Shown here one piece after another: positions 670-14,879 of a stretch of DNA of 64,000 nt. The notes beneath the pieces are model-generated. The model made no database searches and was not told the DNA's origin. It saw only the letters and a program-made list of their open reading frames with translations. The DNA comes from Geodermatophilus obscurus DSM 43160 (GTDB lineage Bacteria > Actinomycetota > Actinomycetes > Mycobacteriales > Geodermatophilaceae). The stretch lies in NCBI RefSeq assembly GCF_000025345.1, contig NC_013757.1, forward strand, positions 1,984,001-2,048,000, in the 5' to 3' direction. The first letter of the stretch is position 1. The number at the start of each line of letters is the position of its first letter. The translations under genes were made by a program, and so were the position numbers.

Positions 670-2118
670 TCAGCCGTTGATCACCTGGGGCACGGCCACC
701 GCCTTCAGGCCCTCGACGCCGAACTCCAGCCCGTATCCGGACTTCTTGACCCCGCCGAACGGGATCATGGGGTGCACGCCGCCGTGGGAGTTGATCCAGA
801 CGGTGCCGGCCTCCAGCCGGGCGGCCACCGCGCGGGCGGCGTCGCGGTCGCTGCTCCAGACCGATGCGCCCAGGCCGACGTCCAGGCCGTTGGCCATGGC
901 GACGGCCTGGTCGAGGTCGTCGTAGCGCACGACCGGCAGCGCGGGACCGAACTGCTCCTCGGCCACCAGGGGGTTGGCGTCCTCGACGTCGGCCACGATC
1001 GTGGTCGGGTAGAAGTGCCCGGCCGCATCGGGGTCGGGGTCCCCGCCGACCAGGATCTTCGCGCCCGCGTCACGGGCGGCGTCGACCAGCCGTGCGACAA
1101 TCTCGTACTGGGCGCGGTTCTGCAGCGGGCCGAGGACGTTCTGCTCGTCCAGGCCGCGGCCCATCGGCATGGCCTGCGCGACCTCGACCAGCGCCGCACA
1201 CACCTCGTCGTAGACGTCGGTGTGCACGTAGAGGCGCTTGAGCGCGGCGCAGGTCTGGCCGGTGTTGATGAAGGCACCCCAGAACAGGTCCTGGGCGATC
1301 GCGCGCGGATCGACGTCGGGCAGGACGATGCCGGCGTCGTTGCCGCCGAGCTCCAGGGTCAGCCGCTTCACGGTGTCCGCCGAGCTGCGGATGATGGCCT
1401 GCCCGGTGGCGGTGGACCCGGTGAACACCAGCTTGTCGACGCCGGGGTGGCTCGACAGCCGCGCGCCCACCTCGCGGCCGCCGGCCACCGCGGTGAGCAC
1501 GTCGGCGGGCAGCACGCTGGTGAGGACGTGCACCAGCGCCAGGACGCTCAGCGGGGTGTACTCCGAGGGCTTGACCACCACGGTGTTGCCCATCCGCAGG
1601 GCGGGGGCGACCTGCCAGACGGTGATCATCATCGGCCAGTTCCACGGCCCGATCGCGCCGACGACGCCGACCGGCCGGTAGTGCAGTTCGGCGTGGGTGT
1701 CCTCGTCGTCGACCACGGTGCCGCCGGGGAGCTCGGTGGCGGCGGTGGCGCGCAGCCAGGCGGCGCAGGCGCCGACCTCGAAGCGGGCGTTGGGGCCGTT
1801 GAGCGGCTTGCCCTGCTCACGCGACAGCAGCTCGGCGAGGGGCTCGGCCGCCGCCTCGACGGCGTCCGCTGCGCGCAGCAGCAGGCCGACGCGGTCGGCG
1901 TCGGAGCGGGCGGCCCAGGCCGGCTGCGCGGCACGGGCGGCGGCGACGGCACGGTCCAGGTCGTCGGCGGAGCGGTCGGCGACCCGGCCCACGACCTCGC
2001 CCGTCGCCGGGTCGAGCACCTCACGGCCACCGGGGTCGGTGATGCCCGCCAGCAGGCTGTCGTACGTCGGGGTCTCCGACGTGGAGGACACGGGGGTGGT
2101 CACGGTGGGCGTGGTCAA
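670..2118 (-). CDS. NAD(P)-dependent aldehyde dehydrogenase, last gene of the homogentisate operon
   Basis: This 482-aa protein has full-length ALDH-superfamily architecture. Motif positions are PWNWP (Asn160), the general-base Glu256 in LELGG, and nucleophile Cys290 in NTGQTCAAL. It oxidises an aldehyde to the carboxylic acid with NAD(P)+ in the cytoplasm. The start chosen is TTG with GGAG eight bases upstream; the N-terminal 20 residues are Thr/Ser-rich and could be trimmed by a later GTG start. It follows fumarylacetoacetase by 58 bp. Since a copper amine oxidase lies in the same island, its likely substrate is an arylacetaldehyde such as 4-hydroxyphenylacetaldehyde (a FeaB-like role). The substrate is inferred from context; the family assignment is secure. 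Confidence 0.9.
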   Translation of the reverse strand: MTTPTVTTPVSSTSETPTYDSLLAGITDPGGREVLDPATGEVVGRVADRSADDLDRAVAAARAAQPAWAARSDADRVGLLLRAADAVEAAAEPLAELLSREQGKPLNGPNARFEVGACAAWLRATAATELPGGTVVDDEDTHAELHYRPVGVVGAIGPWNWPMMITVWQVAPALRMGNTVVVKPSEYTPLSVLALVHVLTSVLPADVLTAVAGGREVGARLSSHPGVDKLVFTGSTATGQAIIRSSADTVKRLTLELGGNDAGIVLPDVDPRAIAQDLFWGAFINTGQTCAALKRLYVHTDVYDEVCAALVEVAQAMPMGRGLDEQNVLGPLQNRAQYEIVARLVDAARDAGAKILVGGDPDPDAAGHFYPTTIVADVEDANPLVAEEQFGPALPVVRYDDLDQAVAMANGLDVGLGASVWSSDRDAARAVAARLEAGTVWINSHGGVHPMIPFGGVKKSGYGLEFGVEGLKAVAVPQVING

Positions 2119-2176: not shown

Positions 2177-3370
2177 TCATGGCGCCGGCTCGACGCGGCC
2201 GGTCACCTCGCCGAGCGCGATGCGTCCGCCCGACGCCCCAGGTGCGGTGGCGGTGAGGGTGACGGTGTCGCCGTCGGTGAGGAAGGTGCGGGTGCTGCCG
2301 TCGGCGAGGGTGAGCGGCTCCGTGCCGCCCCAGGAGAGCTCGATGAACGAGCCGCGCTGGTCCTCGGCCGGGCCGGAGACGGTGCCGGAGGCGAACAGGT
2401 CGCCGGTGCGCAGGGACGCGCCGTTGGCGGTCATGTGGGCGAGCTGCTGGGCCGGGGTCCAGTACATGAGGTCGAACGGCGGGCAGGACACCAGCTGGCC
2501 GTTGAGGCGGACCTCGATGGCGATGTCGAGGCCCCACGGCTCGGCGTCGCTGTCGTCGAGGTAGGGCAGCAGCGGCACGTCGCGGGCCGGCGGGGCGACC
2601 CGGGCGGCCTGCAGCGCGGCCAGTGGCACCACCCACGGCGAGATCGAGGTGAGGAAGGACTTGCCGAGGAAGGGGCCCAGCGGCACGTACTCCCAGGACT
2701 GCAGGTCCCGGGCCGACCAGTCGTTGACCAGGCAGACGCCGAACACGTGCTCGTCGAAGGCGGCCAGCGGAACCGGGCGGCCGAGCTCTGAGGGGGTGCC
2801 GACGACGAAGCCGACCTCGGCCTCGATGTCCAGCCGCTGGGAGGGGCCGAAGGTGGGAGCGTCGTCGGTCGGCGCCTTGCGCTGACCGCTCGGCCGGACC
2901 ACCGGCGTCCCGGAGACCTGCACCGTGCCCGCGCGGCCGTGGTAGCCGATCGGCAGGTGCTTCCAGTTCTGCGTCAGCGGTGCCGAGTCCGGCCGGAACA
3001 TCCGCCCCAGGTTCTCCGCGTGGTGTCGGGAGCTGTAGAAGTCGACGTAGTCGGCGACCTCCACGGGCAGGTGCAGCGTCACCTCCGACCGCGGCACCAG
3101 GTGCGGTTCGACGGTGCTGCGGTGAGCTCCGCCGGTGAACCACTCGGTGAGCTGCGCGCGCAGGTCCGCCCAGGCCTGCGGCCCGCGGGCCATGAAGGCG
3201 TTGAGCGAGCCGGTGGCGTGCACGTCGTCGCCGGTGGCCGCGGCCAGGTCGAGGACGGAGTCGCCGATGGCGACGCCGGTGCGCGGCGCGGTGCCGGTGG
3301 TGGAGAAGACGCCGTAGGGCAGGTTGTCCAGCCCGAAGCCGGTGCCGGCGGGCAGGTCGAGCCACGTCAT
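2177..3370 (-). CDS. fahA: Fumarylacetoacetase
   Basis: This 397-aa protein hydrolyses 4-fumarylacetoacetate to fumarate and acetoacetate, the last step of the homogentisate pathway. It shows the N-terminal SH3-like FAH domain followed by the catalytic FAH fold. The conserved pieces include DFYSSRHHAENLGRMFRP (Asp110, His116/117), the metal-ligand region DIEAEVGF (Glu183/185), VNDWSARDLQ (Asp217) and GPFLGKSF. Length fits bacterial FAH (about 400-430 aa). Its ATG overlaps the stop of the upstream 276-aa gene (ATGA), so translation is coupled. Identification is secure from motifs. The presence of HGD and HPPD nearby confirms the pathway. Confidence 0.97.
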   Translation of the reverse strand: MTWLDLPAGTGFGLDNLPYGVFSTTGTAPRTGVAIGDSVLDLAAATGDDVHATGSLNAFMARGPQAWADLRAQLTEWFTGGAHRSTVEPHLVPRSEVTLHLPVEVADYVDFYSSRHHAENLGRMFRPDSAPLTQNWKHLPIGYHGRAGTVQVSGTPVVRPSGQRKAPTDDAPTFGPSQRLDIEAEVGFVVGTPSELGRPVPLAAFDEHVFGVCLVNDWSARDLQSWEYVPLGPFLGKSFLTSISPWVVPLAALQAARVAPPARDVPLLPYLDDSDAEPWGLDIAIEVRLNGQLVSCPPFDLMYWTPAQQLAHMTANGASLRTGDLFASGTVSGPAEDQRGSFIELSWGGTEPLTLADGSTRTFLTDGDTVTLTATAPGASGGRIALGEVTGRVEPAP

Positions 3371-4197
3371 GCGGGGGTCCGATCGAGGGAGGGCAGCAGG
3401 CCGAGGGCGATGAGGTCGTCGACCGGCTCGAGCACGCTGCAGGTGCCGAAGGAGGTGAAGACGGCGCGGGCGCGGGCGACGCGGTCGGGCGACCAGCCGC
3501 CGACGAGGGCTTCAGCGTCGTCCTGGCGCAGCCACCGCTCGGCCGCCGCGGCAGGTCCGCCTGCGGCGAGCGCGTCGCAGGCGGCGAGCAAGTTGAGGAA
3601 GCCGTGGTGCGCGAACCCGGTCGCCGGGTCGGTGTGCCGGACGGCGGAGTGGAGGCCCGCGGTGCACTTGAGCGCCACGCCGCGGACGACGCAGGCGCGC
3701 AGGGTGGCAGCGAGCTCCTCGGGAGGGGGGAACAGCGCTGCGCGCACCCCGCCGGTGCGCAGCTTGGCCCGGTGACCCGTGCCGGCCAGCACGTCGAGCA
3801 CCTCGTCGCGGGCCGCCGAGCGGGGCAGCTCGACCGCCGCGGGCACGCCGTCCGGCAGCACACCGTCGAGCACCCGGACCGCCTCGCGCGCCGTGGCGGC
3901 GTCGGTGGCGACCGGCACCTCCACGGCGGCGAGGACCAGGCCCGGGTGGGCGTCGACCCGGGCCGCGCCGGCCGGCAGGTCGCCGGCCGCCGCGATCACC
4001 GAGACGCCGACCGGCTCGCCGTCCCCCACGTGCTCGGCCAGCTCGCCGAGCCGGGCGGCCGGGACGACGAACGGCCCGACCAGATCGCCCAGCTGCGCCC
4101 GCAGGTGCCGGTGCGCGGGGACCGCGGTCGCCATCGGCGCGTCCCCGGGCGGGAACAGCGCCGCGTCGTCGAACAGACCGGAGAACAGCACCGTCAC
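3367..4197 (-). CDS. Conserved hypothetical protein embedded between hmgA and fahA
   Basis: This 276-aa protein starts at a GTG that overlaps the hmgA stop (GTGA) and ends in an ATGA overlap with fahA, so it is translationally coupled on both sides. The N-terminus has a distinctive LFDDAALFPPGDAP motif and the C-terminal half contains LKCTAGLHSAVRH and GFLNLLAACDAL. I recognise no domain; there is no signal peptide or membrane span. Its position between homogentisate dioxygenase and fumarylacetoacetase is exactly where maleylacetoacetate isomerase is usually needed. No glutathione-S-transferase-like isomerase is found in the window, and actinomycetes lack glutathione. A role at that step or as an accessory factor is a guess from context only. 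Confidence 0.85.
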   Translation of the reverse strand: MTVLFSGLFDDAALFPPGDAPMATAVPAHRHLRAQLGDLVGPFVVPAARLGELAEHVGDGEPVGVSVIAAAGDLPAGAARVDAHPGLVLAAVEVPVATDAATAREAVRVLDGVLPDGVPAAVELPRSAARDEVLDVLAGTGHRAKLRTGGVRAALFPPPEELAATLRACVVRGVALKCTAGLHSAVRHTDPATGFAHHGFLNLLAACDALAAGGPAAAAERWLRQDDAEALVGGWSPDRVARARAVFTSFGTCSVLEPVDDLIALGLLPSLDRTPA

Positions 4198-5399
4198 GCC
4201 GACGGGCCTCGTCCGGACCAGGTCCAGGCGTACTTCCCGTCGTCGACGGCGACGCCGGCCTCGCCCAGGTCCAGCGGGCGGAAGGTGTCGACCATGACGG
4301 CGAGCTCGTCGAAGTACTCCACGCCCAGGGAGCGCTCCACCGCGCCGGGCTGCGGGCCGTGGGAGTGCCCGCCGGGGTGCACCGAGATCGAGCCCTTGCC
4401 GATGCCCGACCCCTTGCGGGCCTCGTAGTCGCCGTCGACGTAGAACATGATCTCGTCGGAATCGACGTTGGAGTGGTAATAGGGCACCGGGACGGCCAGT
4501 GGGTGGTAGTCGACCTTCCGCGGCACGAAGTTGCAGATCACGAAGTTGTGACCCTCGAAGACCTGGTGGACCGGCGGGGGCTGGTGCACCCGGCCGGTGA
4601 TCGGCTCGTAGTCGGCGATGTTGAACGCGTAGGGGTAGAGGTGCCCGTCCCAGCCGACCACGTCGAACGGGTGCTCCGGGAGCACGTGCACCGTGCCGGC
4701 CAGCCCGCCGGGGCCGTTGCCGCGGTGCTTGACGTAGACCTCGACGTCGGTGCCCTCGACCAGCAGCGGCTCGGCGGGGGCACGGAGATCCCGCTCGCAG
4801 TACGGCGCGTGCTCGAGGAACTGCCCGTACCTCGACAGGTAGCGCTTGGGCGGGGCGATGTGGCTGTTGGCCTCGATCGCGTAGGTGCGCAGCGGCTCGG
4901 ACCCGGTCGGGATCCAGCGGTGCGTGGTGGTCCGCGGGATGACCACGTAGTCGCCCCGGCCGACGGTCAGCGCGCCGAACGTCGTCTCCACCGTGGCGGT
5001 GCCGCGCTCGACGTAGACGCACTCGTCGCCGGTGGCGTTGCGGTAGTACGGGCTCGGCAACGACGAGACCGCGTAGGAGATGCGCACGTCGCCGTTGCCG
5101 AGCACCAGCCGGCGGCCGGTCACCGCGTCGACGGCCTTGTGCTCCTCGCCGGGGAACAGGTCGTGCAGCTTCAGGTGCCGGGGCACCAGCGGCGCGTTCG
5201 GCGTCAGGCTCTGGTCGGGCAGCTCCCACGGCCGGGCGTCGACGATCGCCGACGGCACGCCACGGTGGTAGAGCAGAGCGGAGTCCGAGGAGAAGCCCTC
5301 CTCACCGACCAGCTCCTCGGAGTACAGGCCGCCGTCGGGACGACGGAACTGGGTGTGCCGCTTGGGTGGGACCTCGCCCACCTGCCGGTAGAACGCCAT
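4194..5399 (-). CDS. hmgA: Homogentisate 1,2-dioxygenase, short bacterial clade
   Basis: This 401-aa cupin-fold protein cleaves the ring of homogentisate to maleylacetoacetate with Fe(II) and O2. The C-terminal core carries the expected metal region: YYHSNVDSDE (His309, Asp315/Glu316) and HPGGHSHGPQ (His345/347). The N-terminus (MAFYRQVGEVPPKRHTQFR) is that of the shorter HGD-like clade, not the classical one of about 440 aa that begins with a PGFGNHF-type motif. In place of the classical HRNCMSE ligand string it has HSNVDSDE, so homogentisate is the likely but not proven substrate. AAGGAG lies nine bases before the ATG. It is the third gene of the operon, 15 bp after the FAD monooxygenase. 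Confidence 0.88.
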   Translation of the reverse strand: MAFYRQVGEVPPKRHTQFRRPDGGLYSEELVGEEGFSSDSALLYHRGVPSAIVDARPWELPDQSLTPNAPLVPRHLKLHDLFPGEEHKAVDAVTGRRLVLGNGDVRISYAVSSLPSPYYRNATGDECVYVERGTATVETTFGALTVGRGDYVVIPRTTTHRWIPTGSEPLRTYAIEANSHIAPPKRYLSRYGQFLEHAPYCERDLRAPAEPLLVEGTDVEVYVKHRGNGPGGLAGTVHVLPEHPFDVVGWDGHLYPYAFNIADYEPITGRVHQPPPVHQVFEGHNFVICNFVPRKVDYHPLAVPVPYYHSNVDSDEIMFYVDGDYEARKGSGIGKGSISVHPGGHSHGPQPGAVERSLGVEYFDELAVMVDTFRPLDLGEAGVAVDDGKYAWTWSGRGPSA

Positions 5400-5414: not shown

Positions 5415-7070
5415 TCAGGGAACCTGAGCGCGAGGCCCCCTCCAGGGGCCCACGCCGAGCTTGCGAGGGGTGGGGGGGAGGGGGTCCTTCTGGGAGCGGG
5501 CGAGCACCCGGGCCACCGCGGGGGCGACCTGGGCCGGGTCGGTGACCACGGCGGCGACGTGCCCGTCGGGCCGCAGCACCCAGATCTCGTCGGGCCGGGC
5601 GCCGAGCGCCTCGCGCAGGATCGGCGTCGGGTCCAGGTCGCGGATGCGGTGGACCGCGACGGGGAGGTCGCCGAACGCCGGCAGGACCGGGACCTCGGCG
5701 TCCCCGACGAGGACCGTGACCCCCTCGCGGGCGAGCTGCCTCAGCCGGACGACGTCCGGCCGGCCCGGCACGGTGACCGGGCAGTCGGGCACCAGTACGC
5801 CGGGCGCGGGGACCGGGACGTCGCCGCGCGCGGGCCGGCCCGGGAAGGGACGGCGCTCGTCCGGGGTGGTCAGCGGCGAGTCGACGTACCAGAAGGGCTC
5901 GGCCAGCCGGCCGGAGTCGACCTGCGCCCGGGCCTGCGGGTCGGTGGCGGCCCGCTGCAGGACGTCGTGACGGCGGCGGGCCTCCTCCTCGGTGCCGGGC
6001 ACCAGGAACCGCATGGTGGCGCCGGTGACCTCGATGTTCTCCAGGGCCGCGGCGTGCCGCTCGTCGTGGTAGCTGTCCAGCAGCGACTCCGCCGCCCACC
6101 CGCGGAGGACGAAGGCGACCTTCCAGGCCGCGTTCTCCGCGTCGAGCACCCCGGAGTTCAGGCCGCGGGCCCCGAAGGGGGAGACCAGGTGCGCCGCGTC
6201 GCCGGCGACCAGGACCCGGCTGACCCGCATGCGGTCGACGACGCGGGAGTGGAATCGGTAGACCGACTTCCACACGATCTCGTAGGGGCGGTCGCCGATG
6301 ACCTGCCGGATCCGCCGGTCCAGGCCGCCGGAGGCCTCCTCGGCGGCCAGGTCGAAGTCCGGCGGCACCTGCCAGTCGATCCGGAAGGTCGAGTCGGGGC
6401 AGGGGTGGATGAGCACCTGGCGGCCCGGGTTCCACTCCGGGTCGAAGTAGAACCGGCGTTCGGTCTCCCAGCCGGGCAGGTCGGTCCGGATGTCGCAGAT
6501 GAGGAAGTGGTCGTCGAAGGTCTCGCCGTCGAAGGTGAGCCCCAGGGCCGACCGCAGGGCATCACTGCGCGGCCCCGCGCAGGCGACGGCGTAGGACCCG
6601 CGCACCTCGACGTCGCCGTCCGCCGTCACGCAGGTGACCGTCACGCCCTCGTCGTCCTGCCCGATGCCGGTGACCAGGTGCCCCCAGCGGAGCTCGACCA
6701 GCGACTCGGCGGCGATGCGCTCGTCGAGCAGCCGCTCGGTCTCGCACTGCGAGATGTTGACGAACGGCGGGAACGGGGACTTCCCGCGGTCGGCGAACCG
6801 GAAGCTGAACAGTTCCGCGTCGCGGTGGAAGGTGCGGGCGGTGGTCCAGGTGACCCCGCGGCGGGCGACCTCCGCGCCGACGCCGACGGCGTCCCAGACG
6901 TCCAGGACGTCGCGCTGCTGGCAGATCGCCTTGCTGCCGATCACGTCCCGCTCCGGGCGGCCGTCGAAGACGACGACGCGCAGGCCCCAGCGGGCCAGCA
7001 GGAGCGCGGTGGTCTGACCGACCGGGCCGGCGCCCAGGACCAGCACGGGTGTCGTCATCGGGGGCCTCAT
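5415..7070 (-). CDS. FAD-dependent aromatic monooxygenase (MhpA/PheA-like), candidate arylacetate 1-hydroxylase
   Basis: This 551-aa class A flavoprotein monooxygenase has the N-terminal dinucleotide fold VLVLGAGPVGQTTALLLAR and the second FAD motif VLVAGDAAHLVSPFGARGLN. It also has the C-terminal thioredoxin-like region typical of phenol/3-(3-hydroxyphenyl)propionate hydroxylases. The ATG at 7070 overlaps the MBL gene stop (ATGA); a second in-frame ATG lies at 7058. In this operon the most economical role is hydroxylation of a hydroxyphenylacetate to homogentisate; an MhpA-type substrate is the alternative. Oddly, the last about 25 codons are supplied by a copy of a GC-rich hairpin repeat that elsewhere lies outside genes. 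The tail (SQKDPLPPTPRKLGVGPWRG) is therefore probably non-native read-through. Confidence 0.85.
   Translation of the reverse strand: MRPPMTTPVLVLGAGPVGQTTALLLARWGLRVVVFDGRPERDVIGSKAICQQRDVLDVWDAVGVGAEVARRGVTWTTARTFHRDAELFSFRFADRGKSPFPPFVNISQCETERLLDERIAAESLVELRWGHLVTGIGQDDEGVTVTCVTADGDVEVRGSYAVACAGPRSDALRSALGLTFDGETFDDHFLICDIRTDLPGWETERRFYFDPEWNPGRQVLIHPCPDSTFRIDWQVPPDFDLAAEEASGGLDRRIRQVIGDRPYEIVWKSVYRFHSRVVDRMRVSRVLVAGDAAHLVSPFGARGLNSGVLDAENAAWKVAFVLRGWAAESLLDSYHDERHAAALENIEVTGATMRFLVPGTEEEARRRHDVLQRAATDPQARAQVDSGRLAEPFWYVDSPLTTPDERRPFPGRPARGDVPVPAPGVLVPDCPVTVPGRPDVVRLRQLAREGVTVLVGDAEVPVLPAFGDLPVAVHRIRDLDPTPILREALGARPDEIWVLRPDGHVAAVVTDPAQVAPAVARVLARSQKDPLPPTPRKLGVGPWRGPRAQVP
5431..5489 (-). 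repeat. GC-rich hairpin repeat, copy 1, inside a gene's 3' end
   Basis: On the minus strand this reads AAGGACCCCCTCC, a pyrimidine run, CTCGCAAGCTCG, then a return arm GGAGGGGGCC. It is the same element found at 18834, 44516, 45736 and 52815. Its arms (CCCCCTCC/GGAGGGGG) form a strong hairpin. Unlike the other copies it lies inside the reading frame of the FAD monooxygenase. Confidence 0.7.
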
Positions 7071-8029
7071 CCCTGGAGCTCGTCCCAGACCTGGCGGTCG
7101 CGCTCGGCGGTCCAGATCACCGGGCGCTCGATGCCGGAGAACTCGTCCCACAGCCGCTGCACGTCGAAGGGCAGGCAGTGCTCGAAGATCGGCCACTTGC
7201 CGTACTTCGGGGCCAGCGCCTCGTGGGTGGCGGCGAAGGCGTCCTTGAGGGTGCCGCCGGAGCGGTGGGCCTCACCGACGGTGCGCTGCATGGTGAGCAG
7301 GAAGTCGCGGGTCTGCTCGATGGCGGCGTCGACCTGGTCGCGGCCGCGGGCGATGGCGCCGCGGCCGCCGATCAGCTGCTGCGCGCCCAGGGCCTTGACC
7401 CGGTCGAGGGTGCCGGCGGCCCAGTCGAGGTGGAAGGCGTCGCCGGTGTAGAGCGCGGCCTGGGACTCGACGAGGTCGCCGGCGAAGACGATCTCCTGCT
7501 TGGGCAGCCAGGCGACGATGTCACCCTCGGTGTGCCCGCGGCCGAGGAACTCGAGCACCAGCTCGCCGCGGTCGCCGCCGAGCTCGATGGTCAGCTTGTC
7601 GCGGAAGGTCATCGTCGGCCAGGTGAGGCCGGGGATGGACTCCGGCTCCTCGAACAGCCGCGGCATCCGGCCGTACTCGCTCTCCCAGTCCTGCTGGCCG
7701 CGCTCCTCGATGAGGTGCTTGGTCTGCTCGGAGCTGACGATCACCTCGGCGTCGAAGGCGCTGGCGCCCAGGACGCGGACGGCGTGGTAGTGGCTGAGCA
7801 CCAGGTAGCGGACGGGCTTGTCGGTGTGCTCGCGCAGCTTCGCCAGCCAGCGGCGGGCGGCCACGGGGGTGGCCAGCGCCTCGAAGCAGACGAGGAAGTC
7901 CTCGCCCTCGATGGCGCCGAGGTTCGGGTCGCCCTCCGCGGTCAGGGCGTAGACGCCGTCGGCGAGCACCTCGAGGGTCTGCTCCTTGACGCCCAGGTCG
8001 GCGGAGGAGGCGAAGGGCTTGGCTGCCAT
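7067..8029 (-). CDS. MBL-fold (metallo-beta-lactamase-like) protein with altered metal site
   Basis: This 320-aa protein heads the homogentisate operon. The ATG has GGAGA eight bases upstream. The beta-lactamase fold is recognisable from LVLSHYHAVRVLG (His80, His82), FLGRGHTEGDIVAWL and EIVFAGDLV. The canonical HxHxDH motif is replaced by HYHAVR, so the Asp and third His of site 2 are absent. The usual late His is also not evident (GGRGAIARG). Catalysis as an ordinary di-zinc hydrolase is therefore doubtful, and a one-metal or non-hydrolytic role is possible. It ends in an ATGA overlap with the FAD monooxygenase, suggesting a tightly stoichiometric partnership. I do not know its substrate. 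Confidence 0.85.
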   Translation of the reverse strand: MAAKPFASSADLGVKEQTLEVLADGVYALTAEGDPNLGAIEGEDFLVCFEALATPVAARRWLAKLREHTDKPVRYLVLSHYHAVRVLGASAFDAEVIVSSEQTKHLIEERGQQDWESEYGRMPRLFEEPESIPGLTWPTMTFRDKLTIELGGDRGELVLEFLGRGHTEGDIVAWLPKQEIVFAGDLVESQAALYTGDAFHLDWAAGTLDRVKALGAQQLIGGRGAIARGRDQVDAAIEQTRDFLLTMQRTVGEAHRSGGTLKDAFAATHEALAPKYGKWPIFEHCLPFDVQRLWDEFSGIERPVIWTAERDRQVWDELQG

Positions 8030-8065
8030 GGGGAGGTCTCCAGGTCGACTGCTGCTCGATAAACG

Positions 8066-8183: not shown

Positions 8184-8777
8184 TCAGCGGCCGGCGAGAC
8201 CCGTGAGGTACGCGTCGAGCATGGCCAGCTGGGTGGTCGCCGGGGTGGGCGCGCCATGGGTCGTGGCCAGCACCTGCAGCCCCATGGCCATGGCGAGCAG
8301 CTGCTCGACCAGCACGTCGTCCGGCGTCGTCACCGTGACGTCGCCGTCCTCGCGGCCCTGCCGGAGCAGGTCGCCGAGCTCGTGGCGCCACTGCCGCATC
8401 GCCGCGTCGTTGAGCTCGGCGAAGCGCTCGTCGGCGACCGTCCGGCTCCAGAAGGGGAGGACGATGCGTGCCTCGAGTCGGGTCGTCTCCGTCGTGGGCA
8501 GGACCTCGACGAGGAAGGCCCGGAGTGCCGCGAGCCCGCGCAACCCCTCGGTCGCCTCGCGGATGCGGTCGTTCGTCCGGTCGAAGACGTACACGAAGGC
8601 CGCCTCGATCAGCGTCTCCTTGTTGGCGAAGTAGTACGCCAGCGCGCCGTTCGCGTAGCCGGCCTCCCGGGCGATCTCGCGCATGGTGGCCGCGTCCGCG
8701 CCCCGGGTGGCCATGAGCCGCCAGGTCACCTCGAGGATCTCGCGGCGCTTGGCGTCGTGGTCCACCAGTCTCGGCAC
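8184..8777 (-). CDS. TetR-family transcriptional regulator
   Basis: This 197-aa protein starts at GTG with GGGAG just upstream. Residues about 5-55 form the TetR helix-turn-helix (EIAREAGYANGALAYYFANK, a BetI-like recognition helix with YYF). The rest is the variable all-helical ligand-binding domain. It is the third gene of a minus-strand set (amine oxidase, permease, TetR) and lies directly before the homogentisate operon, so a local repressor responding to an amine or aromatic intermediate is likely. Candidate target palindromes are at 8066-8081 and 12284-12299. Confidence 0.92.
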   Translation of the reverse strand: MPRLVDHDAKRREILEVTWRLMATRGADAATMREIAREAGYANGALAYYFANKETLIEAAFVYVFDRTNDRIREATEGLRGLAALRAFLVEVLPTTETTRLEARIVLPFWSRTVADERFAELNDAAMRQWRHELGDLLRQGREDGDVTVTTPDDVLVEQLLAMAMGLQVLATTHGAPTPATTQLAMLDAYLTGLAGR

Positions 8778-8844
8778 CGGGCTCCCGTCCCCTCGTCCTG
8801 GTGTCCAGTCTGGCCGACGAGGGGACGGGAGCCCGGGCGGGGGA

Positions 8845-10302
8845 TCAGCCGCCACTCGACCGGGTCGGTGCCCTCCCCGGTGACCGGGTGAGCGCGACCA
8901 CGACCCCGACCCCGAACGCCGCGACGATGACGGCCAGCAGGACGGTGGCCAGGGCGGTGGACCCGCTGATCAGGGTGGTGAAGTTGGCCAGCACCAGCCC
9001 GACGACACCCAGCAGGCCCGCCGTGCCCAGCGCCGGCGCCACCCGCGTGTGCCAGATCCGGCGGTCCACCCGGCTGTGTGCGAAGAACGCCAGCACCGCC
9101 ACGCTGGTCAGCACCATGAGCAGCAGGATGCTCACGGTCGCCATGCCCGACATCCAGGTGAACAGTTGGAGCACCGGGTCCGAGCCGGCGGCGGCGAACA
9201 CGGCGACCACCACGAACGCGCTCGCGGTCTGGGCCAGGGAGCCCACGTGCGGGGAGGTGTGCCGCCCGTGCGTCCGGCCGAGTACCCCCGGGGCCATGCC
9301 CTGGCGGCCCAGCGCGAACAGGTACCGCGAGATGGCGTTGTGGAACGCCAGCAGGGCGGCGAAGAGACTGGTCAGCAGGAGGACCAGCATCACCTCGGCG
9401 ATGACCGGGCTGACGTACTCCGCGGCCGCCGTGAACACCAGCCCCGCGGTGTCGGCCCGTGCCGCCGCGACCACGCCGTCTGAGCCGAACGCGAGCACGA
9501 TCGCCCAGCTGGCGACTGCGTAGAAGGCGCCGATGAGGACGACCGCCGCGTAGGTGGCGAGGGGCACGGTCCGCCGCGGGTTGCGCGCCTCCTCGCCGTA
9601 GATCGCCGTGGCCTCGAAGCCGATGAACGACGCGACGGCGAACATGATGCTGATGCCCGGTGCGCCGGAGAAGAACTCCGACGGGGTGAAGGACCGCACG
9701 TCGATGCCGTCGGCGCCGCCCTGGGCGAGCACGGCCACGGCCACCACGGTGATGACCCCGATCTCCAGGGTCAGCACGATGCCGAGCACCTTGGCGCCCA
9801 CGTCGATGTTGCGGTAGCCGAGCAGCCCGACGGCGGCCATGAGGACCAGTGACCACACCCACCACGGCAGGTCCGGCCCGCCGTACTGGACGACCAGGCC
9901 TTGGGCCGTGGCGCCCGCGAGGCCGTAGATCGCGGCCTGGATGGCGGTGTAGGTGAGCAGGGCCAGGCCGGCGGCGCCGACCCCGACCGGCGTCCCGAGG
10001 CCCTTGCTGACGTAGGCGTAGAAGGCGCCGGCGTCGACCACGTGCCGGCTCATCGCCGCGTACCCGACGCTGAAGAGCAGCAGGACGACGGTGGCGACGA
10101 CGTACGCCATCGGGCTCCCAGCCCCGTTGCCGATCGCCAGCATGACCGGCAGGGCACCGCCGACAGCGGTGAGCGGCGCCGCCGCGGCGACGACCAGGAA
10201 CACGATGCCGACGACGCCGATCGAGCCGCGCAGCCCGCGGGCGGACGCGTCGCCGGTGGGTTCGGCCGCGCCCACCGGCGCGGTGGCGGAGAGCTCACTC
10301 AT
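8845..10302 (-). CDS. APC-family amino acid/amine permease
   Basis: This 485-aa integral membrane protein has about twelve hydrophobic segments. It begins with the APC-family signature [18 protein letters not shown] after a short Ala/Gly-rich cytoplasmic N-terminus and contains [20 protein letters not shown], typical of the APC superfamily. Its start overlaps the end of the amine oxidase gene by eight bases, so the two are co-translated. The likely job is uptake of the amine or aromatic amino acid oxidised by its partner. Exact substrate cannot be told from sequence. Confidence 0.92.
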
Positions 10303-12265
10303 GGCAGCACCCGTCCTGGTTCGCGGTGCCGTCGGCCGGGCTGGCCGCGCGGCTGCGGCAGTGGGTGCTGGCGTTCGGGGGGACGTCGAGCGTGGGGTTG
10401 CGGTCGAAGAAGCCGACCGGCTTGAGCCGGAAGCCGGTGTAGTCGACCGGCATGATCGGCCAGTCCTCGGGCCGGGGCACGTGGGTGAGGCCGAAGGTGT
10501 GCCACACGACGACGTCCGCTCCCTGGAGGTCGCGGTCGGCGGCGACGTACTTCGGCAGGCCGGCGCCGCCCTCGTGCTGGTTGACGAAGTCGCCGGCCGC
10601 GTAGCGCTCGGCGGGGTCGTAGGCGGTGACCCACAGGTGCTTCGTGGCGAAGGTGGCGCGCCGGGAGATGGAGCTGTCCGGGTCGGCCAGCAGGGCCGGC
10701 TGCCCCTCCGGCAGCAGCGCGTAGGCGACCGGCTCGCCGAGGCGGTTGCGGCTCTCCGGGTTGCTGATGTGCCAGATTCGCCCGACGGACTGGTCGGCCA
10801 TGCGCTGGGCCTCGGACTCCCGGCGCAGCGTCGTCCGCCGCTGGGCGAAGGCGTTGCCGCGCGGGTTGTCCGGTCCCATCGGGACCCGCACGAAGTCCAG
10901 CTCCTCGACGGTGTTGGTCGGGCCGTCGACGGCCATGTCCAGCCGGGCGCTGAACAGGTGCTGGTGGAACGGGGCCCCCAGCCCCGGGGCGATCTCGGAG
11001 GCGTACGGGTAGCCGTTCCCGGGGTGGGCGGAGGTGAAGACGATGCCGGTGGCCTTGACCTCGAACCCGATGGTGCCGTCGAGGTAGAGGTACCAGTAGA
11101 AGCCGTAGTCGTAGTTGCCGATCGTGGTGAAGAAGCTGATCACCATCCGGCGCTGCCGGCGGGTCTCCGAGGAGCCGGCCCACAGGTCGGTGTGCTTCCA
11201 GAGGACGCCGAAGTCCTCCTCGTGCATGCAGATGGCGTTGCGCAGCACCTGCGGGTTCCCGCGCTCGTCGGCGATGACGGCGTCCAGATAGGTGATGTCG
11301 CCGAGGCAGTCGCAGCCGAGCTCGAGGGCGTTGGCGTAGCGGCCGACCAGGTACTCGCCGGTGTCGAAGTAGTTCTGCCACGACCGGACCGGCGAGGGGT
11401 CGGCGTAGGGCACGACCATCTCGGCGATCGAGGCCCGGTGGACGATCGGCCGCAGCCGGCCGCCGTCGACGAAGCCGATCTGGTGCAGGGTCAGCCCCTC
11501 GCGGGCGTCGAACCCGACCCGCAGCTGCCAGCCCTCCCAGGTGAGCAGGTTGCCGTCGAGGGTGAAGCTCGGCCCCTCCGGCTGGGTGATCTCGATCGGC
11601 CGCTGCGTCGTCCGCAGCGGGCCGGTGAGCTCCGGGTCGGTGAAGTTGCCGTGCTCCTCGGGGATCGGCACCGGGCCCAGGTCGATGACCTGGTCGACGG
11701 TCCTGGCCATCACGTCGACGTAGGCGACCAGCCCGTCGATCGGGTGCGCCCAGGGGTGGTCCTCGGGGTGGTCCTGCCGGAAGGCCAGGCCGCGGAGGAT
11801 CCGCCGTCCCTCCTCCTCCGGGTACTCGAAGACGCCGGCGGAGAGGGGCGCCACGCGGACGTCGGCGACGTCGAGCCCGCGCGCCGCGAGCGCGGCGAGC
11901 CACCGCTCGTCGGTGCCGAGCACCTCCTCCACCAGCGCGAACTCCTCGTCCAGCACCGGCAGCTGGCCGTCGGTCGCGGCGTCGAGGGCGCCGTCGGAGA
12001 CGATCGTCCGCTCGGTGATCGAGACGACGACGTCGTGAGCGTTCGGCCGCTCGACGTCGTGCAGCAGGACGCGCACCCGGCGGTCCGGCGTCGGGCCGCC
12101 GTACAGCTCCGACTTCGGCGGCTCCTCGAGACCGACGTAGACGAACCGGGTCGACTCCGTGACCAGGCCGGCTGCGTCCAGGAGCTCACGCGCCGCGGTG
12201 ATGTCAGCGGCGCCGAGCTGGGCGAGGGGGTGGGTCACGGAGGGGGTGATGGTGTCCGCTGCCAT
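10295..12265 (-). CDS. Copper-containing primary-amine oxidase
   Basis: This 656-aa copper amine oxidase oxidatively deaminates primary amines to aldehydes, releasing NH3 and H2O2. The topaquinone motif is TIGNYDYG, with Tyr385 as the precursor; the catalytic base is Asp301 in [30 protein letters not shown] provides copper His ligands. Length matches bacterial phenylethylamine/histamine oxidases (about 640 aa). No signal peptide is visible, so it is cytoplasmic. ATG has GGGAG upstream. It overlaps the APC permease gene. Context with an aldehyde dehydrogenase and the homogentisate pathway suggests tyramine or phenethylamine as substrate. H2O2 production makes the nearby broken katG notable. 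Confidence 0.95.

Positions 12266-12755: not shown

Positions 12756-14879
<2,124 letters not shown>

Follow-up and report, generated by a model that had tools for sequence, protein, structure and literature searches.

A predicted TIM-barrel protein encoded between homogentisate dioxygenase and fumarylacetoacetase is a candidate thiol-independent maleylacetoacetate isomerase of actinobacteria

Actinobacteria have mycothiol in place of glutathione, and the window analysed here (the whole 64,000-nucleotide stretch of Geodermatophilus obscurus DSM 43160 DNA) raises the question of which protein carries out the maleylacetoacetate isomerase step in their homogentisate catabolism. A gene for a 276-aa protein, called X here (3367..4197, minus strand), lies in the window between the genes for homogentisate 1,2-dioxygenase (HGD) and fumarylacetoacetase (FAH), and a first-pass annotation had proposed it as a candidate glutathione-independent isomerase. 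The isomerase step of actinobacterial tyrosine breakdown looks like a gap in knowledge, and none of the matches listed in a search of open-licence papers (titles and the starts of abstracts) deals with the X gene. In Rhodococcus ruber NBRC 15591 a relative of X is also found between HGD and FAH. Rhodococcus ruber Chol-4 is described, in the excerpted text of PMC6498646, as growing on homogentisate and not on L-tyrosine; that excerpt speaks of hmgABC, and its gene key has hmgA and hmgB and no pathway isomerase.

X is read from the minus strand; its frame runs uninterrupted through 276 aa, and LFDDAALFPPGDAP stands near the N-terminus. Reading the window DNA confirms that it overlaps both neighbours: plus-strand TCAC at 4194-4197 is minus-strand GTGA, where the GTG start of X overlaps the HGD stop, and plus-strand TCAT at 3367-3370 is minus-strand ATGA, where the ATG of FAH overlaps the stop of X. 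The FAH gene (2177..3370, minus strand, 397 aa) matches TIGR01266 with 443.2 bits, against a cut-off of 375.3. The HGD (‘hmgA’; 4194..5399, minus strand, 401 aa) is of a divergent type, with Pfam HgmA_N and HgmA_C above their cut-offs and TIGR01015 at 61.8 bits, far below the cut-off of 510.75; a relative of it is named just ‘cupin domain-containing protein’ in one plasmid record. Its HGD label is supported by a 4-hydroxyphenylpyruvate dioxygenase (HPPD) gene in the same window (about 13671..14879 with an approximate start, plus strand; TIGR01263, 417.1 bits, above 277), because HPPD is the tyrosine-pathway enzyme which produces homogentisate, making homogentisate a natural substrate.

Upstream on the same strand lie a FAD-dependent monooxygenase of the PRK08132 type (5415..7058, with a chosen start codon; NF006002, 472.8 bits, above 416), which is perhaps a ring hydroxylase feeding homogentisate, and a metallo-beta-lactamase-fold hydrolase (7067..8035, approximate start; PF00753). 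These two genes recur together beside X at 11 of the 80 loci described below, with one further weak and distant match, and in one genome (G279) X is near such a pair on a contig separate from both HGD and FAH. Also on the minus strand is a TetR-family regulator (8184..8855; PF00440, PF13977). The operon is flanked by an aldehyde dehydrogenase downstream of FAH (670..2118, minus strand; PF00171, 469.6 bits) and by a copper-dependent primary-amine oxidase (10295..12265, minus strand; NF008559, 935.4 bits, above 651; PF01179), possibly a peripheral step; together they suggest a route from phenethylamine or tyramine to homogentisate.

X belongs to a widespread actinobacterial family. When one genome per species was scanned with two sequence patterns, at least 561 stretches encoding relatives came to light (one gene may count twice), of which the best 80 loci were analysed; from the organism names we take all 80 to be actinobacterial. 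FAH is nearby on the same strand as X at 75 of these best 80, and HGD is near X at 71 (55 on the same strand and 16 divergent), which ties X to FAH and the homogentisate operon. The five loci without FAH comprise one at which the contig ends just past X (L049), three whose fetched flanks contain no FAH and no HGD (L023, L024, L032), and L094. Six others have X and FAH and neither of the HGD types searched for, and in genome G086 X lies between FAH and another HGD type; X therefore tracks the FAH step. The junction of X and FAH is a 4-base overlap at 45 of the 71 measurable loci (4 of the 75 being without a usable start), and over 60 loci (20 of the 80 were left out because a gene was absent or too short) the distances between X sequences correlate with those between FAH sequences at r = 0.86, or 0.74 as a partial correlation given HGD; the r for X and HGD is 0.74.

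Plasmids carry X too, in 17 of 72,556 records, from Streptomyces, Pseudonocardia, Rhodococcus, Tsukamurella and Nonomuraea, and it is annotated ‘hypothetical protein’ in all 15 plasmid records listed. Five of the plasmid loci were read: fahA follows X in every one, and in three of them X itself comes after HGD or the cupin protein that matches it. A CoA transferase pair lies behind fahA on the Streptomyces sp. Alt3 plasmid.

Pfam and NCBIfam searches with X gave nothing above any cut-off, a PDB sequence search yielded no family, and a PDB search with a 69-member X profile reached a best E of 0.36, all in keeping with the first impression of a protein without a known domain. Pfam searches with the 69 members of alignment A2 (the window X and 68 of the 80 loci) brought weak, scattered matches, the best of them to CbiZ (E 0.003, 6 members). 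Among 101 distinct X sequences, the window's included, 99 or more agree at each of 21 positions. This conservation, taken with the frequent 4-base overlap with FAH, argues that X is not a chance reading frame.

To what extent X and FAH occur together was also seen across 296 Actinomycetota genomes. The X profile matched 17, of which 16 were confirmed; the match in G247, a marginal fragment away from FAH which later searches failed to confirm, was set aside. FAH is above cut-off in 29 of the 296 genomes and in 15 of the 16 confirmed X carriers (Fisher p ~2e-16; 16 of 17 and p ~1e-17 if G247 is counted; genomes counted regardless of relatedness in both cases), and the exception, G269, has just a fragment of X, which lies 1.8 kb away from HGD and at the edge of a contig. 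X adjoins FAH in 14 of the 15 genomes having both. The converse does not hold: 14 of the 29 FAH genomes are without confirmed X, 8 of them in a single genus, and X is thus not present wherever FAH works without another recognised isomerase. In G235 and G031 HGD and FAH are side by side with nothing between them and no X, as they are in G214 and G272, where FAH scores below the cut-off. Six loci (L117, L118, L120, L121, L129, L133) have HGD beside FAH, no X, and no isomerase recognised by the checks that were run; a Pfam search of ten neighbours from four X-negative HGD-FAH loci likewise found no isomerase, two of the ten being familyless and perhaps mis-framed.

Could a known kind of isomerase do this work instead? 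The zeta-class glutathione S-transferase (GST) isomerases (MaiA/HmgC/GSTZ, TIGR01262) share with X the proposed reaction and the place between HGD and FAH, but X is predicted to be a TIM barrel and cannot be counted as a member, having no NCBIfam match at E 1. Not one of the 296 genomes has a TIGR01262 match above the cut-off of 171 bits; weaker GST-type matches occur in 52, among which G121 is the only X carrier, and this genome has no match at E 0.001, in agreement with the earlier statement that no classical isomerase is visible in the operon. The mycothiol-dependent maleylpyruvate isomerases (NCgl2918/GenC/NagL, PF11716) catalyse an analogous cis-trans step in the actinobacterial gentisate pathway; X, by contrast, does not match PF11716 (MDMPI_N) at E 1, nor does any of the 69 A2 members, and its proposed nucleophile is an internal cysteine. 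The operon also lacks such an enzyme, as the annotation had said, the nearest of the 17 MDMPI_N matches in this genome being more than 180 kb away.

The likeliest alternative, though one we judge improbable, is that an MDMPI/DinB-type isomerase elsewhere, or mycothiol alone, isomerises maleylacetoacetate and that X serves the operon in some other way, for example by tautomerising reactive diketone by-products or removing them. It draws on the fact that so many FAH genomes manage without X, and on this genome having both MDMPI_N proteins and the mycothiol-synthesis gene MshC (645 bits). In mice, a thiol can reportedly bypass maleylacetoacetate isomerase. On two of the five plasmids read, both from Streptomyces (L200, L203), an MDMPI-type gene stands some 3-4 kb away from X-fahA, beyond a VWA-domain gene; it may encode a second isomerase or be there by coincidence. 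In Rhodococcus an MDMPI-type enzyme acts in the analogous gentisate pathway, but according to the excerpted text of PMC3937715 it clusters there with its pathway, unlike here. A home-made MDMPI profile (24 training sequences, E 0.001), run over 115 stretches, found nothing adjoining X or FAH and only three weak hits at least 3 kb off, and X itself is tightly tied to FAH. A mycothiol isomerase elsewhere in the genome, which the annotation had named as fatal to its idea, is thus allowed for by the presence of MshC and of 17 MDMPI_N matches and disfavoured by the absence of any such MDMPI_N match near the operon.

The distribution of MshC bears on this and on a further alternative. MshC searches gave matches in all 35 genomes tested, 16 of them above cut-off, and in 8 of the 35 the only full-length match scored 313 bits or less and was CysS-like. 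We called a genome MshC-negative when its best score was at most 313 bits with no other full-length match, MshC-like matches scoring at least 357; CysS-like proteins also match MshC in all 35 genomes and in all 14 controls, their CysS identity being our interpretation. Three FAH-positive, X-negative genomes (G017 and G200, whose loci are L120 and L121 among those above, and G175) seem to be without MshC as well as X, so that another route must exist, and X is not the sole actinobacterial answer, given these and the other FAH genomes without it. Among X carriers 14 of 17 have an MshC-like match (6 above cut-off), and three, G045, G057 and G121, have just the CysS-like match and are seemingly MshC-negative; in G057 the X copy is degenerate.

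It is a rather improbable reading that X is an isomerase using mycothiol or another small thiol as nucleophile, with the barrel serving just to bind the substrate and activate it. Both the zeta-class and the MDMPI isomerases do use a thiol cofactor, and most X carriers have the MshC-like match just mentioned; however, G045 and G121 carry X without one, which favours thiol independence of X, and 98 of 101 sequences retain a cysteine of the protein, C253, which two copies have lost jointly with two other residues, K145 and H183. These residues are best considered on the predicted structure.

Profile search and structure prediction, the checks which the annotation had proposed, gave no sequence family and a confident fold. 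AlphaFold2 (with 69 sequences) predicts an eight-stranded TIM barrel with mean pLDDT 96.2 and pTM 0.92, the strands being residues 9-11, 40-46, 63-68, 87-94, 120-123, 143-147, 176-179 and 247-252. In VIA-align 2, ranks 1-42 (Z 13.3-15.2, rmsd 3.2-3.9) are taken by deoxyribose-phosphate aldolases (DERA; DeoC, TIGR00126), by KE70 designs, which are DERA-derived, by two or three entries titled only ‘aldolase’ and by one untitled structural-genomics protein; the best match is a DERA (Z 15.2, rmsd 3.6, 214 aligned residues, 15% identity), with homocitrate synthase next after this group at Z 13.2, 2 Z units under the best DERA. Foldseek with the X model returned nothing at E 0.001 or better, its top matches being a transaldolase, dihydropyrimidine dehydrogenase and aldo-keto reductases, with the first DERA at rank 10. 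A (beta/alpha)8 barrel nearest to DERA is therefore what VIA-align indicates, while Foldseek alone does not single out DERA.

In the motif order of DERA, X has lysines on strands 6 and 7 and the sequence FGTCS (FGxCS) at strand 8: K145 lies in predicted strand 143-147 (strand 6) and K177 in 176-179 (strand 7), a placement by predicted strand. The DERAs of L190-L195 and L197 have KTSTG, [VL]K-x-[AS]GG and [FY]GASS in this order, with a serine where X has its cysteine. X differs further from DERA in its link to FAH, and 10 of the 12 X carriers tested have an ordinary DeoC as well. An hhalign comparison of X with DERAs paired all three motifs at a probability of 0.4%, but among 60 column shuffles and one reversed DERA profile used as controls, 8 shuffles and the reversed profile scored equally high (one shuffle stood at an odd 136), and X has no DeoC profile match in Pfam or NCBIfam, nor do the A2 members in their Pfam search. 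Because homology to DERA at the sequence level is not significant, we claim the likeness for the fold only.

The conserved polar residues of X are on the predicted barrel strands or in the loops after them. Among the 101 sequences D10 is kept in all; R147 and H198 in 100; E123, K177 and T179 in 99; and E93, K145, H183 and C253 in 98 (for C253, one of the three exceptions is a fragment). Two divergent copies beside FAH have lost several of these together: that of G057 (L014) has K145A, H183D and C253R, and that of G258 (L113) has K145R, K177T, H183A and, aligned by eye, P for C253; both have lost K145, H183 and C253 jointly and retain D10, R147 and H198. They could be natural inactive variants or proteins of changed function.

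Operon coupling, phylogenetic association, predicted fold and residue conservation together lead us to read X as probably the missing maleylacetoacetate isomerase of actinobacterial homogentisate catabolism, needing no thiol cofactor; we infer its substrate, its reaction, its thiol independence and the role of each residue. X would convert the cis ring-cleavage product of HGD to fumarylacetoacetate for FAH, being neither a zeta-class GST nor an MDMPI-type mycothiol enzyme. The isomerase idea of the first-pass annotation thus becomes a strong genomic hypothesis: the association with FAH and a plausible predicted site speak for it, and the FAH genomes without X limit how widely it can apply.

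More tentatively, we suggest how a DERA-like barrel could act as a cofactor-free cis-trans isomerase, with a lysine iminium and an internal cysteine replacing the thiol of glutathione or mycothiol. The two-lysine, one-cysteine site is plausible on the predicted model. K145, on strand 6, where DERA carries its Schiff-base lysine, might condense with the C4 ketone of maleylacetoacetate to give an iminium, and K177 would tune the pKa of this lysine; the thiol of C253, just past strand 8, would then attack the activated enedione, making C2-C3 a single bond, and after rotation the cysteine would leave and the iminium be hydrolysed, freeing the trans isomer. D10, R147, H183 and H198 may serve in carboxylate binding and proton transfer. 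A precedent is found in DERA itself, where, in the excerpted text of PMC6244999, Lys167 binds crotonaldehyde as a Schiff base and Cys47 attacks the C-beta of the crotonaldehyde, and where Lys201 probably perturbs the pKa of Lys167; were such an iminium and thiol reaction reversible on maleylacetoacetate, isomerisation without a thiol cofactor could follow.

The same DERA-like fold and lysines on strands 6 and 7 would also suit an aldolase-, lyase- or hydrolase-type X acting by direct cleavage of maleylacetoacetate or of a side product, making isomerisation unneeded. We consider this quite improbable: FAH, beside X at nearly all of the best loci, would have no work left were the cis compound cleaved by X, and no maleate-use gene is annotated in the five plasmid stretches (from an incomplete gene table). 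The gene context points away from aldol chemistry on a phosphorylated deoxysugar. The 4-base overlap and the correlated divergence might suggest that X assists FAH as a partner or chaperone without catalysing anything itself; this is highly improbable, since the near-invariant polar residues of X, on barrel strands or in the loops following them, are arranged as in an enzyme.

Maleate isomerase, of the Asp/Glu racemase superfamily, uses a cysteine and no thiol cofactor to isomerise a related diacid from cis to trans, but its fold is other than the TIM barrel predicted for X; X has no Pfam match to that superfamily. If X does work by a lysine iminium and an internal cysteine, aromatic catabolism would, to our knowledge, have a third way, independent of the other two, of isomerising maleyl to fumaryl compounds.

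At least 561 stretches in public genomes encode this candidate (one gene may account for several of them), which makes the isomerase gap directly testable. If our reading of X is right, a family annotated ‘hypothetical protein’ in the 15 plasmid records listed would gain a function; if the more tentative mechanism holds as well, a new enzyme family would be recognised in which a DERA-like aldolase barrel serves as a cofactor-free isomerase. X would also provide a natural, productive form of the iminium-plus-thiol chemistry which, in the excerpt of PMC6244999, is described in DERA as inactivation.
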